64,000 nt of DNA from Halothiobacillus diazotrophicus. Lineage in GTDB: Bacteria > Pseudomonadota > Gammaproteobacteria > Halothiobacillales > Halothiobacillaceae. Positions within the stretch are counted from its first letter, which is position 1. Each line of letters opens with the position of its first letter. The notes under the pieces are model-generated. The model made no database searches and had not been told where the DNA came from. It saw only the letters and a program-made list of their open reading frames with translations. The DNA is taken from NCBI RefSeq assembly GCF_001663815.1, contig NZ_CP016027.1, positions 1,550,001 through 1,614,000 on the forward strand, read 5' to 3'. Position numbers and translations under genes: made by a program. Of this stretch, positions 329 to 7,792 are shown one piece after another.

Positions 329-622
329 ATGCGACTGGATGCGCCCACGCCCCGCCTCTCCCTTCTGGGTTTTGCCATATTGCTCTGTTGCGGATGCTCG
401 GTAGACCAGCCGTCCACACGCGCCGGTCAGGCTGACGCCCCGCTCGATTTCGTCTGGCAGCGCGTAGGCACGACACCGGGGGGCTGCGCGATGTACACCA
501 AGAAACCGGTCGCTAAGCATATCATCGTGGACAACGCCATCTGGTTTCGCAACGCCCAAGGGCAATATGTTTTGGACGAACACGCCTGTTCTCCCTCAAC
601 CTTTCAAGGAAATCCGCAATGA
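329..622 (+). CDS. small putative lipoprotein, unknown function
   Basis: This is a 97-residue protein that I do not recognise. The N-terminus is [20 protein letters not shown] followed by CGCS: a short basic stretch, a hydrophobic core and Cys residues that fit a lipoprotein signal with cleavage before one of the Cys residues near position 23. The rest is a small soluble domain with two more cysteines (GGCAMY and EHACS) that could form a disulfide. An AGGAG sits 9 bases before the ATG, supporting the start. The stop overlaps the ATG of the following protease gene (ATGA at 619-622), so the two are translationally coupled and may act together, for example as a protease-associated lipoprotein. 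That role is inference from position only. Confidence 0.6.
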
Positions 623-2283
623 GCATCCTATCTGGCATCCAACCGAAAATCGGATTCGTGATCGCATTCACGGTGGTGCTGACAGGCTGCGGCGGTGGAG
701 GGGGCGGCTCGTCCGTACCGGATCCCGGCAGCTATGTCCCGACACCCGCGCCGACACCCGCTCCGACACCCGCTCCGACACCCGCTCCGACGCCCGCTCC
801 GACGCCCGCTCCGACGCCCGCTCCGACGCCCGCTCCGACGCCCGCTCCGACGCCCGCTCCGACGCCCGCTCCGACGCCCGCTCCGACACCTGGCCCCACC
901 CTCACCCCATCACCCGGCGCGCCGACCAATTCGGCCCGGGTTACCGCAACACTGAACTATGCCGGCGCCGCCGCACAATCCGTCGGTGTCGCCGTACTGG
1001 ACTCGGGGATCAACACCACCCACCAGGAATTCACGGGCAATGGCGGTAAGAACGGCGTGGGCGGCCCCATCGTCAGCGGCGGCATCAATACCACGGCGGC
1101 CCTGAACAATGCCTACCCCACCCTCACTGGAACCACCTCCCAGCAGAACACCGGCGACTACAGTTATGCGTCCGGGCAGTCCACCCATGGCAACTTCGTG
1201 GCCAGCGTGATCGGCGGCGCCAATGTCGGTTACTCCGGCGATTCGAGCCTGTACATCGAAAAAATCACCGACACCACGACCGCCAGCTCCGTGACCGTAG
1301 CCTACGGCTTCGGCGATGCGGCCACTAAGGGCATGAGCTTCGCCAATCTGAGTTACGGACTCGACCCGGTCAGTTATTACAAATTACTGGCCGATCAGGT
1401 GGCCTCCGAGCGCGCCGCCGGGCAGACCGGCATCAACAATCTCACCGACGCGCAGTACGCGCAGTACCAGAACGTCATCAACAAGGGCATGGGGTTGATC
1501 GTGTCCGCCGGCAACAGCACCCTCAATTTCTCGACGACCAATCAGACCCAGAACACCTGGTCCACCAGCAACCCGCTCTATGGGCTGACGCTGATCGTCG
1601 GGGCCTTGGACAGCAGCCAGAACAATCTGGCTTCCTATTCGAACTTCGCGGGGGATGATCCCAACGTACAAAAGCGTTTCATCACGGCGCCGGGCACCAA
1701 TACCGGCGCGGATCCGACAAGCAATACCGCCTATGGCTCGTTTTCCGGAACCTCTTCGGCGGCGCCCGTCGTCACGGCCGCCGCCGCGACCCTTAAATCC
1801 TACTGGTCGTTCATGACCCCAGCGCAGGTGCAGCAGCGCCTGCTGGATACCGCCGACAAGAATTTCAACGCCATGTGGAATATCCACACCTGCGGGGCAT
1901 CCGGTAGTTTGAACTGCGGCAATTACTATTTCGGCCAAGGCCGCCTGGATCTGCCGGCCGCGCTGGCGCCGGCCGGGGTGGTCGTAACCACGACGGCTGC
2001 CAGCGTCCCCACCGGAGCTGACGGCAACCCGAAAACGGCGCCGGCGCAGGCCGCTCACCTGGTGGTTCCCGCCGCCCTCGCACCGATTCAGCAACAGGTA
2101 CGCGCCGAATCCACCGGCATCCAAGGGTTCGACGCGATCGGCCGCAACTACACGCTCAATGTCGCCCCGGCTATCGACACCGTGACCGATCCCACGCAAA
2201 CTCTGGGCTATGAAATGCAGGGGTTCATCGATGGATTCATGAACAAGGATCAGTCATCGTTTACGGCCTTCGAAAATCAGTGA
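619..2283 (+). CDS. subtilisin-like (S8) autotransporter protease, passenger part, separated from its barrel
   Basis: This is a 554-residue serine protease. A signal segment ends in LTGC, which looks like a lipobox, followed by a glycine run. Residues about 40-92 are a (TPAP)n repeat. The S8 catalytic triad is visible: Asp128 in [10 protein letters not shown], His190 in [10 protein letters not shown] and Ser379 in FSGTSSAAP. The oxyanion-hole region reads VSAGNS. After the protease domain come an Ala/Pro-rich stretch and a linker ([11 protein letters not shown]) of the type that precedes the barrel in S8 autotransporters. The frame stops at 2281-2283, where such proteins would normally continue into the barrel. 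The next frame supplies that barrel. Either the gene is frameshifted or the two halves are made separately. The start is fixed by ATGA overlap with the lipoprotein gene. Confidence 0.8.
739..894. repeat. 12-bp tandem repeat (about 13 units) encoding (TPAP)n
   Basis: The unit is CCGACRCCCGCT. The first four units carry ACACCC; from 787 to 882 eight consecutive units are identical (ACGCCC); the last unit is degenerate (ACACCTGGC). The period is a multiple of three, so gain or loss of units keeps the protease frame. It encodes a proline-rich spacer between the membrane anchor and the catalytic domain. The homogeneous run suggests recent slippage or unequal recombination. Confidence 0.95.
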
Positions 2284-2332
2284 AACGCTGTTAACTCAAC
2301 CGCCTGAGTCAGGAAAGGAGCGATTTCCCGCC

Positions 2333-3244
2333 ATGTTCGCCGTCGATCAGGTCATCGACTATGACGGATATGGCCGTCCCACCATGGCCTATGTCCAATA
2401 TCGTGCGAACGATACGGCATTCAGCGCATTCCATTTTACGCGGGGCAAGGCCCTGCCCGACGCCGTGGGCGCGGATCTACCGGTCGCGCTGGTCACCGTC
2501 AACGGCGCCAATCCCTTGGCCGGCATGGTCTATCAGGCGGACGGAATCGGCACCACCCACAAATTCAATGAAGTCGTATTCGCTAAAACCCAGGTCTGGT
2601 CCGGTACCGGATCGGCCGTACAGATGGGGTCGTACGATCGGATTGATCAATACGCTTTCGCACTTGGCGCGAATATCGGCGACCACCTTCAGATCCAAGG
2701 CGAAGAAATTCGCGCCCGCGAATCCAGCGGCTTCCTCGGCGCGATCGGCAGCGGCGGATTCAGCACTGCCGACGGCGCCAGCATCCGACTGCATGGGCTA
2801 TCCCTAAGATTTTCGATGAAGGCGGCCGAAAATCGGTTCGAGGCCTTTGCCACCTACCGACAGGGCACGGCCCAATCGCGGTTTGCCGATTCCATCCTCA
2901 CGCGCATCGACGCCCGCCTGAACCAGTCCGCCGTCGGCATCGGCTGGCGCAACAACGTCAATGCCGTCGCCTTCGCCGTCAGCCAGCCGCTGCACGTCAC
3001 CGGCGGCGATCTCGGCATGAAGCTCGCCATCGGCCGCACCGACAACGGCGCGGTGATCTACAACACCCCCACCATCGTCCTCAACCCCGGAATCCGCCAG
3101 ATCAACTGGGAACTGGGCATGACCCACCGGCTCAATCAGAACGCCAAGATCGGCATGAACCTGATTTATGTGAAAAACCCGGCAAACTCGCCGGGCCTGA
3201 GCCACGATGCCGGCCTATTGTTCATCTATGGGGCACGGATTTAA
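2333..3244 (+). CDS. C-terminal part of the S8 autotransporter (beta-barrel-like)
   Basis: This is a 303-residue frame beginning 50 bases after the stop of the protease part, in the +1-shifted frame. The sequence alternates polar and hydrophobic residues in short stretches ending in turns (for example FEAFATYRQGT, AVGIGWRNNVNAVAFAV, INWELGMTHRLNQNAKIGMNLIYV), as expected for an outer-membrane barrel. It lacks its own signal peptide. A purine-rich GGAAAGGAG lies about 12 bases before the ATG, so independent translation is possible. However, this frame stays open upstream to about 2243, overlapping the end of the protease frame, which fits a single ancestral gene broken by an indel. A separately made barrel without a signal peptide could not reach the outer membrane, so I lean toward a disrupted gene, sequencing error or programmed frameshift. 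Confidence 0.65.
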   Translation: MFAVDQVIDYDGYGRPTMAYVQYRANDTAFSAFHFTRGKALPDAVGADLPVALVTVNGANPLAGMVYQADGIGTTHKFNEVVFAKTQVWSGTGSAVQMGSYDRIDQYAFALGANIGDHLQIQGEEIRARESSGFLGAIGSGGFSTADGASIRLHGLSLRFSMKAAENRFEAFATYRQGTAQSRFADSILTRIDARLNQSAVGIGWRNNVNAVAFAVSQPLHVTGGDLGMKLAIGRTDNGAVIYNTPTIVLNPGIRQINWELGMTHRLNQNAKIGMNLIYVKNPANSPGLSHDAGLLFIYGARI

Positions 3245-3253
3245 GCCGGATAC

Positions 3254-3285
3254 GCCCCACTCATCGGGCTGAAAAGGGGTTTTTT
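3254..3285 (+). terminator. weak candidate terminator
   Basis: A short GCCCC/GGGGT pairing with a long loop is followed by six T residues just after the barrel frame. The stem is only 4-5 bp, so this is a low-confidence call. It lies between two convergent genes. Confidence 0.3.
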
Positions 3286-3391
3286 ACTCCGAGCCCAATA
3301 GCTGAGTTAAAACCAGCGCCCTCTCGATCAATGACCTTATATATCGGAGCCCGTTGATCAAATCAGAAAATAACCTTGATCAGAACGCCGT

Positions 3392-6300
3392 CTAAACGGA
3401 AGACGGGGGGTGAATATTTATCACCCGCGCCTGAAGGCTGGTACGGTTAATCTTTATTTCGTTGCTGACCGCCTTGCCTTTGTAACACATCGAGGTTTCA
3501 AGCCGCTTGCAAACCCCGTCCCTGGCCGCACTAAACCAGTTGAATGATCCGATGCATAGAAGATCGTCATCACAGGCAACAATCTTGCTGTGGACCTTAT
3601 TGACGATTATCAGTTGGATTTTAGAGGATGCCAGGATTTCCTTGGCTGCTATCAAAGCACACTCATTCGCGTCCTGCTGATCCGTGCTTTTGTTCCCACG
3701 GTTGAATTCCAAATCGGTATAGATCGCGATCTTCACCCCGCGCGATATCGCTGCATGCATCGAGTCCAGAACGCCGGAGGTCGAAAGCTTTTCCTGCTTG
3801 AACCAGGGCGTGACGATCATTACCTCGCGCTTGGCAGATTCAATGGCTTCCCTCAGGAATGCATCGTGCTCTTCGGCATCGTGCAGCACCTGGATATCCG
3901 CGCCCATGTCAGCGATGTCCACACGTTGAACCGGTGGGAAGATCAATTCATTACCCATGCTGCGGAAAAGATACGTGGCCAGCAAACCCCGAGGTTGTGA
4001 CTTCAAGCGGGGATTGAACATGTCCATGTCCCCAAAGACCAGGAAACTGTCCTTGGCCCGAGAAACCGCCACATTCAACATGCTCGTATTACGGTCGATG
4101 AAGCCGCCATCCGCGTGCTTCGAGTACGTCGGGGAGAACACAATGACCCGTCGCTCCGCACCTTGGAGTGCATGAACAGTGCCGATGGTCATCGATGACT
4201 CGCCGGAACCGACTGCGATACCCCTCTTCTTGCATTCGTCCGAGATGAGCCCAGCTTGGCCGGCAAAGGGGGTGACCACGCCGATGATTTTGTGTAGCGG
4301 TTCGCCATAGGCCCGCTCCAGCATCTCACGATGATCTGAGATCCATGCAGCAATCGTTTCGGCCTCTACCTTGTTTTGCCTGCTTCCCGAGTTTCCCTGC
4401 GTGCACATGCCGTCGATATGCAGATACCCCATGGCAGGGAGATCAACCTGCGATGGATATTCGTTCTCGTCGCGGCTCGGAATCAGCTTCCCGTGGTAAC
4501 AAAGCTGGTTGCAGTACTCGATGATTTCGCTGAGGCAACGGCGGTGTTCATACAGAAAAAGGCCGCGTGCCAGATCGCGGTCATAGTGGTAGCGGGATGC
4601 GTTTTGGGCGATCTTCATCACACTGCCTGACGATGCCGTAATGCCAAGCTCGCGCAGACGCTCAAATTCTGTACGAGGCGATGCTGGCGACATGATTTCT
4701 GCGGAAATGAGGTTGCCGACATCAACGGGGCCTGGCATTCCCCAGATGGGTTCGATTTGCAGCGTGTCGCCAATGACCAATGCCCGTTTCGCCAAAGCGA
4801 ACGAGGCTCCCGCCACTTCGGGCAAAACTTGTCCGGCCTCATCGACGATGAGCAGATCGGCGAAGTCGTAAAGGTATTCATCAATGAATCCTTCTCCGTC
4901 ATGGCGTGTGCACCTTAAGTGGGTCGGGAGCATGAAGAACGTGCTGACGACGCAGGGGGTCAGCATCATGCGTCGTCGCCACCGGTCCATGACGACTTGC
5001 CGGCCTTTCTTGCGTTTCAACTCTTCAAGCTGGGTGCCCAACTTCTCAATCTCCAGCAGCCAACGTCCCTCCCAATAGTGCGTTGCCAGCAGAAACATCC
5101 GGAAACGGATGGTCGTATCGACTTTTCGGTCAGCATCCGTCAATGTCCTGATGGGGTGCTCCTCGCTTTCAAGTTCTCGGACGGAGCTTTTCCAGTGGCG
5201 ATAGGCCATTTCAAAGGTGTCAATGATCCGCTGCGCCGACATGGCGCGGGCAGCACTACTACTCGCTGCTGCGGCCAACTCCGCTGCCTGGCCGTTCAGT
5301 TGATCACTGATTGAGTCCACAGAACGGATGTCGTCGTCAATGGCGATACCCATCGCTCCAAGTTCTCTCCGGGCCATGGCAACGCGTTTTTTTTCGACGG
5401 CGGGAATCCAACTGAACAGCGTCAACAAAAATGACTCGCTGGCGAGGTAATCATTCCAGCGTTTAAGAGCTTTTCGTACATCATTGACCAAGGTTTCGTC
5501 ATGCGCCGCTTCGTTCTTGAGATGATCTAATGTGGCGTAAGGCTCAGTCCCCAGCGTATTACGAACATTGCACTCTTCCGCCTGATACTTGGTCCAGGTA
5601 GACGCCATTTGAGAGAGCTTGGCCGCTTCCGTGCGCAGTTCGGCGTGTAGCGACTCGACGATACTGGACACATCTGTCTTGGCCAGACTCGGAAAAGCTT
5701 GTTTGCCGGCGGTGATGAACGCCTCGCTCGCCGACGCAAAATAATCCGGGGTTTCAACGGCGTCGAAAAAACCCGGAGTCTGGTATTTGGCGGCGGCCTC
5801 GGCGAGCTTGCTGGATGAAGGGAAATACGCGCCGAAACTCTTGATGCCAGGCAACCATCTCCCGGCAAAGGGGCCTGTGCCAGCCTTAAAATCCTTGCCA
5901 AATGCGTCAAGGATGTTGGTCACAGCCTGGTTGTTCGTCGAGGCCGCGACAATGACGGGCGGCTCACCTTGCTGTAAAGCTGCTTGCGCCCACAGGGAAG
6001 CCACAGCGGATAGCAGCATCGTCGTTTTCCCAGTACCTGGTGGCCCATTGACCGCAACGATCTCGCCGGGGATGGAAATCATCAGATGGGAAAGCGCGTC
6101 ACGCTGGGCCTGGGCCAGCGGGTGTTCATCGCCGGAATGGGCCTGTCGCCTGTCAAAGGTAGCCTCGGATGCAAGGCAAGGCTCATCCGGTGTGGCGTGG
6201 TCAAGCGCATAGGTGACAAACAGCGGGGCGTCTGGCGTCGTCTGGTAGATGTCGTCGTAGACAGCGATGATGTGCTTGCTGGGCGAACCCGTGATGTCCA

Positions 6301-6928
6301 CCTTCTTCAGATACCAAGTGGCGGCCTTCGTATACTTGTCAGATGCTTGAGGCCAATCCCCGATGACTGCGCTCATGAATTGGTTGCAGTAGTCCAGGTA
6401 TTCCTTCCATATCACGGCATGCGCACGGTCTTCTTCAGGATTGACCGTATAACCATGCTGGGTCAGGTTTTCATCCATCGCCGACACTTGGCCGATGGCA
6501 AATGCCCCTCTATCAACAGGATCAAGAATGTCGCGCGCAAACACAGTCTTGCCGGAGGGCAACATCTCGCCAGAGCGATTGGCTCGAACAGTGCACGATA
6601 GCGGGGTAACGATCTCAGGCAACCCGCCACCGAGACCTTTGCCATGCACGATCTGCCGCATGAACGCCCATGGTCTGATGATGAGATCGACAGTTTCGAT
6701 GTGCTCGGGCTCACCTTTGAACAGGGCTGCCAATATATCCTCATCGAGGATGCCTTTTGTCAGCGACTCCGACGGCTGCGGGGTGCATTCCTTGTCGAGG
6801 TCGGCCCTTCTCCAAGCACCTTTTCCAAGTTCAGCGTCGGCTAGCGAGTGACGCCAATAGGCGGCATGTTTTTCCATTGTAGCAGTGGCACGGATTGGAT
6901 TTTTGGACATCATGCTCATAAGTTTCAT
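3392..6928 (-). CDS. large SF1 (UPF1/DNA2-like) helicase fused to a C-terminal PLD nuclease domain
   Basis: This is a 1178-residue protein. Helicase motifs appear in order: Walker [10 protein letters not shown] near residue 294, Walker B LLIVDEAGQ near 692, VIGDTLQIEPI near 719, EHRRCLSEI, then VHALQGAERRVIV near 921 and NVAVSRAKDS near 956. A long, partly helical insert with charged coiled-coil-like stretches separates motifs I and II. The C-terminal 150 residues form a phospholipase-D-type domain (EVMIVTPWF near 1037) with one complete HKD motif: HSK near 1113, then D, G and N at the usual spacing. A single HKD domain would need to dimerise to cut. UPF1-like helicases act on RNA or DNA, and PLD-fused versions are common among bacterial defence genes. 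No partner gene is adjacent, so a one-gene system is suggested. Antiphage function is inference. The ATG at 6928 is the first in frame, but an overlapping upstream frame raises doubt about the N-terminus. Confidence 0.8.
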   Translation of the reverse strand: MKLMSMMSKNPIRATATMEKHAAYWRHSLADAELGKGAWRRADLDKECTPQPSESLTKGILDEDILAALFKGEPEHIETVDLIIRPWAFMRQIVHGKGLGGGLPEIVTPLSCTVRANRSGEMLPSGKTVFARDILDPVDRGAFAIGQVSAMDENLTQHGYTVNPEEDRAHAVIWKEYLDYCNQFMSAVIGDWPQASDKYTKAATWYLKKVDITGSPSKHIIAVYDDIYQTTPDAPLFVTYALDHATPDEPCLASEATFDRRQAHSGDEHPLAQAQRDALSHLMISIPGEIVAVNGPPGTGKTTMLLSAVASLWAQAALQQGEPPVIVAASTNNQAVTNILDAFGKDFKAGTGPFAGRWLPGIKSFGAYFPSSSKLAEAAAKYQTPGFFDAVETPDYFASASEAFITAGKQAFPSLAKTDVSSIVESLHAELRTEAAKLSQMASTWTKYQAEECNVRNTLGTEPYATLDHLKNEAAHDETLVNDVRKALKRWNDYLASESFLLTLFSWIPAVEKKRVAMARRELGAMGIAIDDDIRSVDSISDQLNGQAAELAAAASSSAARAMSAQRIIDTFEMAYRHWKSSVRELESEEHPIRTLTDADRKVDTTIRFRMFLLATHYWEGRWLLEIEKLGTQLEELKRKKGRQVVMDRWRRRMMLTPCVVSTFFMLPTHLRCTRHDGEGFIDEYLYDFADLLIVDEAGQVLPEVAGASFALAKRALVIGDTLQIEPIWGMPGPVDVGNLISAEIMSPASPRTEFERLRELGITASSGSVMKIAQNASRYHYDRDLARGLFLYEHRRCLSEIIEYCNQLCYHGKLIPSRDENEYPSQVDLPAMGYLHIDGMCTQGNSGSRQNKVEAETIAAWISDHREMLERAYGEPLHKIIGVVTPFAGQAGLISDECKKRGIAVGSGESSMTIGTVHALQGAERRVIVFSPTYSKHADGGFIDRNTSMLNVAVSRAKDSFLVFGDMDMFNPRLKSQPRGLLATYLFRSMGNELIFPPVQRVDIADMGADIQVLHDAEEHDAFLREAIESAKREVMIVTPWFKQEKLSTSGVLDSMHAAISRGVKIAIYTDLEFNRGNKSTDQQDANECALIAAKEILASSKIQLIIVNKVHSKIVACDDDLLCIGSFNWFSAARDGVCKRLETSMCYKGKAVSNEIKINRTSLQARVINIHPPSSV

Positions 6929-7102
6929 CGGTCATCAAGAACTCGAGTTCGATCATCACACCCTTATTGTCAACCTTGTTTGTGTCGGACATACCACTGA
7001 TGAAGAATCGGCTACCCTCGGTTATGGCCAGCACTATTTATATCCCCAGAAATTTTATGCGCCGAATGGATAACAGTGATCTGTGATCTAAGCTTGCCCC
7101 GC

Positions 7103-7131
7103 TTGACCAAAATGAAATCATATCCTAATTA
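7103..7131 (+). promoter_or_regulatory. candidate sigma-70 promoter of the DsrE-like gene
   Basis: TTGACC at 7103-7108 and TAATTA at 7126-7131 are separated by 17 bases in an AT-rich stretch. Transcription would start near 7138 and leave a leader of about 85 bases before the ATG at 7223. Confidence 0.45.
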
Positions 7132-7147
7132 TTAGCAATAACTAATA
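7130..7147. promoter_or_regulatory. 18-bp inverted repeat over the -10/start region, possible operator
   Basis: TATTAG at 7130-7135 and CTAATA at 7142-7147 form perfect 6-bp arms around a 6-base spacer. They overlap the end of the proposed -10 box and the expected start site, a usual repressor position. The cognate regulator is unknown; ArsR-type sulfur regulators use AT-rich palindromes, but the link is speculative. Confidence 0.35.
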
Positions 7148-7222
7148 TTAAGGATATCGAACCTCGAGCCATCTACCTGAAATCTGTCGCAACGACAGCA
7201 TTTGATCGAGGAGTGACGCATC

Positions 7223-7792
7223 ATGAACATCAACAAACTATCCGCACTGATCCTGGCCGCCAGCGTTCTGTCGCCACTGGCTGCACCGGCAGCCCTGGCG
7301 GCGGCCGAGCATCCGGCCGGCTTCTGGTCGTACCCGGAAATCGCCGGTTATGGCCCCGTGCATGTCTGGCCGCAGGCCATTGATCGACCGCAACCGGGCA
7401 CGACCTACAAGGCCCTGTTCGACGTGACGCATACCAAGTCCATGGACAAGCTCAACGGCAGCCTGGACCACGTGGCACGCGCCGTGAACGTGTTCGCCGC
7501 GGCGAAAGTACCCGAAGATCACATGAAGTTCATCGTGATCATCCATGGTCCGGCCACGGCGATCGCGCTCGACAACAAGGCCTTCGAGGCCAAATACGGG
7601 CATCCCAACCCGAACCTGAAGGTGATCGACGACCTGCACAAGGCGGGCGTACGGCTGATGGTCTGCGGCAATGCCCTGGCGGACAACGGCTTTACCCCAT
7701 CCGAGGTCAATCCCGAGATCAAGGTGGCCATGTCCGCCCTGTCGACCCTGATCATCGAGCAGGACAAGGGCTATGCACTGATGCGGATGTAA
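7223..7792 (+). CDS. exported DsrE/DsrF-like family protein
   Basis: This 189-residue protein has a clear Sec signal peptide: MNINKLSALILAASVLSP, then an alanine-rich region with likely cleavage after ALAA. The mature part has a DsrE-like fold signature: YKALFDVTH, a helix beginning LNGSLDHVARAVNVF, KFIVIIHGPA, then VRLMVCGNAL with a conserved-position cysteine near the C-terminus, and finally a helix. DsrE-family proteins carry or process protein-bound sulfur; cytoplasmic DsrEFH and TusBCD use such a cysteine. An exported single-domain member is less usual and would act in the periplasm, perhaps in reduced-sulfur handling. GAGGAG 7 bases before the ATG supports the start. It is monocistronic with its own promoter candidate and terminator. 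The family is well supported; the substrate is unknown. Confidence 0.8.
   Translation: MNINKLSALILAASVLSPLAAPAALAAAEHPAGFWSYPEIAGYGPVHVWPQAIDRPQPGTTYKALFDVTHTKSMDKLNGSLDHVARAVNVFAAAKVPEDHMKFIVIIHGPATAIALDNKAFEAKYGHPNPNLKVIDDLHKAGVRLMVCGNALADNGFTPSEVNPEIKVAMSALSTLIIEQDKGYALMRM

Follow-up and report, generated by a model that had tools for sequence, protein, structure and literature searches.

Mokosh type II is described as an anti-phage system that consists of a single gene, mkoC, whose product carries an RNA helicase at its N-terminus and a PLD nuclease at its C-terminus (PMC11672841). Assignments to this type call for some caution, as in the Bacillus cereus group the number of Mokosh type II calls made by PADLOC greatly exceeds that of DefenseFinder (PMC11811056). 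Here, we analyzed a 64,000-nucleotide stretch of DNA from Halothiobacillus diazotrophicus (hereafter the window; NZ_CP016027.1, positions 1,550,001 to 1,614,000), in which a first-pass annotation had pointed to a helicase-nuclease fusion as a candidate one-gene defense system. Judged from its sequence, we consider it very likely that this gene, referred to below as the mkoC-like gene, is a Mokosh type II mkoC in both identity and anti-phage role. The defense reading of the first-pass annotation thus remains the best one, although the full-length match to MkoC means that the system is not new.

Domain architecture and family assignment

The mkoC-like gene is read from the minus strand and encodes 1178 amino acids with no internal stop codons. 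Its parts, and the stretch in which it lies, are listed below in window coordinates.

3392..6928, minus strand: mkoC-like gene, an SF1 helicase fused to a PLD nuclease; 1178 codons, alternative start at codon 18 (6877); from PADLOC MkoC match and alignment
6140..6871, minus strand: N-terminal region, residues ~20-263; family-specific, without a Pfam match; Y24, R26, D31, R132-D133 and D225 conserved (11 homologues)
5729..6139, minus strand: RecA-like part one of the helicase, residues 264-400; Walker A at 6020-6046; from Pfam and alignment
5006..5749, minus strand: long helical insert between motifs I and II, residues 394-641; from a structure model; low sequence conservation
3944..5128, minus strand: part two of the helicase core, residues 601-995; DEAGQ at 4829-4843 and motifs V-VI at 4049-4189; from AAA_12 and alignment, with matches to UPF1, senataxin and DNA2
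3419..3901, minus strand: PLD nuclease domain, residues 1010-1170; single HKD motif at 3536-3592; from PLDc_2 and alignment, with Nuc (1byr) and NucT (6ehi)
3245..7116, no strand: inserted stretch absent from the sister genome G005; contains the mkoC-like gene only; neither a direct repeat nor an integrase detected at its flanks

The HMM check proposed in the first-pass annotation returned AAA_11 (42.7 bits), AAA_12 (73.0 bits) and PLDc_2 (43.0 bits), all above the Pfam gathering score of 27. Together with the open reading frame and a motif alignment, these matches bear out its description of a UPF1/DNA2-like helicase with a long insert between motifs I and II and a C-terminal PLD domain with an HxK...D...GSxN signature. 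In an alignment of the protein with ten full-length homologues (11 proteins), the helicase motifs GPPGTGKTT (Walker, 295-303), DEAGQ (696-700), GD..Q (720-724), EHRRC (794-798), TPF..Q (886-891), VH..QGAER (918-926) and NV.VSRAK (952-959) are invariant or nearly so. The same is true of the PLD residues H1113, K1115, G1127, S1128 and N1130, while D1120 is nearly invariant, and each chain carries a single HKD motif. Motifs I and II are separated by ~390 residues, and within this interval residues 394-641 are poorly conserved in sequence and modeled as long helices, mostly at pLDDT 70-88. The full-length model, built from a shallow alignment, has a mean pLDDT of 54, and only its PLD domain and helical insert are usable. 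Since profile and DNA homology both begin near residues 18-20, the true start of the gene is uncertain and M18 appears at least as likely as M1. Promoter and terminator scans performed no better than shuffled sequences.

Compared with the PADLOC profiles, as the first-pass annotation had also advised, the protein matched MkoC over its full length with 1326.7 bits, residues 18-1167 aligning to positions 5-1134 of the 1136-position profile; the runner-up model, MkoA, reached 96 bits. Despite the caution raised for PADLOC, this match is probably not an over-call, because it covers the whole profile. All 11 aligned proteins match MkoC. Other traits of Mokosh type II are likewise present: the helicase precedes the PLD domain in a single polypeptide (AAA_11/AAA_12, then PLDc_2), the Walker A, DEAG and HKD residues are intact and conserved in 11 homologues, and no partner appears to be obligatory, in that neighbors vary among homologues and the inserted stretch carries one gene. 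Since a one-gene helicase-PLD architecture has already been described as Mokosh type II, it does not constitute a new system, and the mkoC-like gene adds a member to the described one.

Insertion between two conserved genes

The mkoC-like gene is flanked on the left by a subtilase-type autotransporter and on the right by a DsrE-family protein. In G005, both flanking genes are present (80% and 84% protein identity) but lie ~190 bp apart, compared to 3,978 bp here. DNA homology to G005 ends near 3241, just past the stop codon of the autotransporter, and returns near 7117, so that ~3.87 kb containing the mkoC-like gene alone is extra in our genome. G005 is an empty site for this gene. Our search set comprised 57 genomes, and among the 26 that are other members of the genus and family, none carries the mkoC-like gene. 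A direct repeat spanning the edges of the insert, as a scar of transposition, was looked for and not found, nor was an integrase detected flanking 3245..7116.

The closest relative that we identified is from Parasulfuritortus cantonensis (86% protein identity). The DNA of the two aligns over the coding region only, and the flanks of the relative differ, with nitrogenase-type and HipA-like ORFs among its neighbors by our reading of the sequences. The dN/dS ratio between the two genes is 0.19 overall and ranges from 0.09 to 0.27 by region, with 0.09 and 0.11 for the helicase parts and 0.27 for the PLD domain. These values indicate purifying selection on a gene that has been kept functional, its activity being predicted from sequence. 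The first-pass annotation had noted AT-rich surroundings, which agrees with a GC content of 0.551 for the gene versus 0.605 across the window; just 3 of 242 equally long sliding windows have a lower value. This low GC fits a foreign origin, and the comparisons as a whole indicate that the gene was gained horizontally and inserted between the autotransporter and DsrE-family genes.

One detail of the earlier description has to be revised. The autotransporter was called broken, and it does fall into two ORFs (554 and 303 aa; window 619-3244, ~50 bp apart). Because the same two-ORF form occurs in G005 (521 and 303 aa), the split is not damage at this locus, and the autotransporter may truly consist of two genes instead of being a pseudogene. 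The claim that the gene stands alone and without a partner is upheld: it is the only gene in the inserted stretch, and no local defense island was found in the left 20 kb or among the ORFs tested on the right. By our reading, the left 20 kb holds groEL, icd, glycogen phosphorylase and flagellar genes. On the right, the tested ORFs encode housekeeping proteins, for example a tRNA-modifying enzyme and RecBCD-like and Mfd-like proteins. Helicase-like matches at 44.9-55.1 kb were considered as defense genes and set aside, as they read as Mfd and RecB/RecD and their matches to defense models are weak or partial. The locus offers a clean case of a one-gene defense system on the move, placed between two conserved genes without an island, an integrase or a direct repeat, and the empty site in G005 serves as a control.

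Relatives and alternative roles

Homologues of the mkoC-like gene lie on plasmids, in satellite prophages, or beside Gabija, restriction-modification (R-M) and ThsB-like genes. Using a Salmonella query, we found relatives in 877 of 5426 complete E. coli genomes. Two E. coli copies (L065 and L067) follow a tRNA-Phe gene and an integrase, and a third (L066) is part of a tRNA-Leu island in which a PDC-S02 restriction-like gene, a ThsB-like TIR gene and a type I R-M system adjoin it. Among viral-contig records, one (L071) contains GajA and GajB of Gabija with an integrase near the homologue, and another (L072) is a P4-like satellite with a type II methyltransferase and a restriction enzyme. Relatives were also found on 62 plasmid records. 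Plasmid copies are single genes with unrelated neighbors, often transposases, integrases or toxin-antitoxin genes. The mapping of homologues proposed in the first-pass annotation thus returned defense or mobile neighbors at these five loci and on several plasmids; it covers ~14 inspected loci and is a survey rather than an enrichment statistic. The neighborhoods are consistent with a defense gene. A looser family tally (120 of 274 genomes) consists mostly of partial helicase or PLD matches and was not used as a measure of MkoC prevalence; strong, long matches are present in ~3 genomes.

Several more distant loci deserve mention. One genome (G130) encodes a 992-aa relative of the MkoC helicase on the minus strand (L013/L068:1323-4301; profile 5-964, 898 bits). 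This protein stops after the helicase and lacks a PLD domain; the ORF that follows encodes 314 aa and is of unknown type, and a relaxase/helicase-like gene lies nearby. The relative may represent a variant whose effector is different or encoded separately. Other genomes of the class encode large SF1 helicases of ~1100-1180 aa (L015, L016 and L017) that match MkoC positions 243-990 and show no match to its PLD part. In L073, a trio of vWA, phosphatase-like and kinase-like ORFs (4052-7790) adjoins an MkoC homologue and an integrase; we read it as TerY-P-module-like, and it had no PADLOC match at E <= 1e-10.

Could the gene serve the host rather than defend it? RNA-surveillance and DNA-repair enzymes are found among the UPF1/DNA2-like helicases and the local neighbors are housekeeping genes, as might be expected of a helicase-nuclease that turns over RNA or repairs DNA for the host and defends it only as a by-product. 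The first-pass annotation had named syntenic conservation in all relatives as the mark of such a gene, and the opposite was found, namely absence from all 26 other genomes searched in the genus and family and a clean insertion relative to G005. The E. coli relatives, present in 877 of 5426 genomes and seen at tRNA/integrase sites or in a defense-gene island, speak against it as well, and we rejected this highly improbable reading on the grounds of the gene's absence from these relatives and the empty site. A module with which mobile elements act against plasmids or competitors, rather than against phages, would accord with the plasmid-borne relatives and with the one contig on which the helicase-only relative adjoins a relaxase/helicase-like gene. 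Yet chromosomal and satellite-prophage copies adjoin R-M, Gabija and ThsB-like genes and Mokosh has been described as anti-phage (PMC11672841), which leaves this role very unlikely too. Finally, a solitary gene outside any island might be a decaying or non-functional copy, but the open 1178-codon frame, the intact catalytic residues and the dN/dS of 0.19 give us hardly any reason to believe so.

Proposed mechanism and comparison with known systems

By sequence profile and fold, the PLD domain is nearest to Nuc and NucT. The helicase is nearest to UPF1 and senataxin, with a resemblance to DNA2 as well. Nuc forms its active site where two chains, each with one HKD motif, meet. Since the mkoC-like protein has one HKD motif per chain, its PLD active site would need two chains, and by analogy the nuclease is probably a Nuc-like dimer. 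We propose that the N-terminal region and the helical insert help to recognize, or gate access to, nucleic acid produced during infection. The UPF1-like motor might then load and translocate with ATP, and the PLD dimer would cleave the engaged strand, thereby keeping the phage from propagating; the infected cell might be lost in the process. Our confidence in this detailed scheme, in which the helicase directs the PLD nuclease, is evenly divided. A bolder version, in which the insert (394-641) and the N-terminal region together sense infection and keep the PLD dimer inactive as long as no particular phage nucleic-acid structure has been engaged, strikes us as rather unlikely; if true, MkoC would combine sensor, motor and effector in one chain.

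As to the target, we lean slightly toward RNA over single-stranded DNA. The best helicase matches are the RNA helicases UPF1 and senataxin, and Mokosh has been stated to degrade viral transcripts, an assertion for which we found no direct test (PMC11291487). Phage DNA would instead be the target if the protein sensed replication intermediates in the manner of DNA2 or Hachiman and cut DNA with its PLD domain. The closeness of that domain to the nucleases Nuc and NucT points in this direction, as does a review table that groups Mokosh with systems from which phages escape by mutating functional proteins of their own, such as DNA polymerase, ssDNA-binding protein, helicase and terminase (PMC10286901). 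We regard a DNA target as quite possible, at somewhat less than an even chance, and it is a sub-question within the Mokosh reading rather than a competitor to it. Because the mechanism of Mokosh is listed as unknown in a review (PMC12926258), a compact, intact and divergent mkoC homologue such as this one could be of use for biochemistry.

The individual parts of the protein have relatives outside Mokosh. Its helicase has SF1 motifs and RecA-like cores in common with UPF1, senataxin and DNA2; however, it differs from them in its N-terminal region and its long helical insert, and a PLD domain takes the place of the UPF1 regulatory and DNA2 nuclease domains. Nuc and NucT have the same PLD fold with one HKD per chain but are small free nucleases, whereas here the domain is fused to a helicase. 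DISARM DrmC is likewise a defense protein with a PLD domain, to which the match is weak (26.6 bits), and it lacks the helicase fusion. As the PLD domain is here joined to a helicase and no other Drm gene was recognized among the neighboring proteins scanned, membership in DISARM was rejected.

Within Mokosh, the likeness to type I (MkoA and MkoB) is distant, the helicase matching MkoA with 96 bits and the PLD domain matching MkoB with 58 bits. Type I comprises two genes and includes a kinase domain, whereas here helicase and PLD are fused in one gene. A search for a separate MkoB gene in the same genome found matches solely on the mkoC-like gene, and type I was rejected on this basis. With type II (MkoC), in contrast, the gene has in common its single stand-alone form, the order of helicase then PLD, a similar length, all motifs and a full-length profile match. 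Relative to other type II homologues, this copy is 30-46% identical to most of those examined and 86% identical to that of Parasulfuritortus, and it is set apart by its position outside any defense island.
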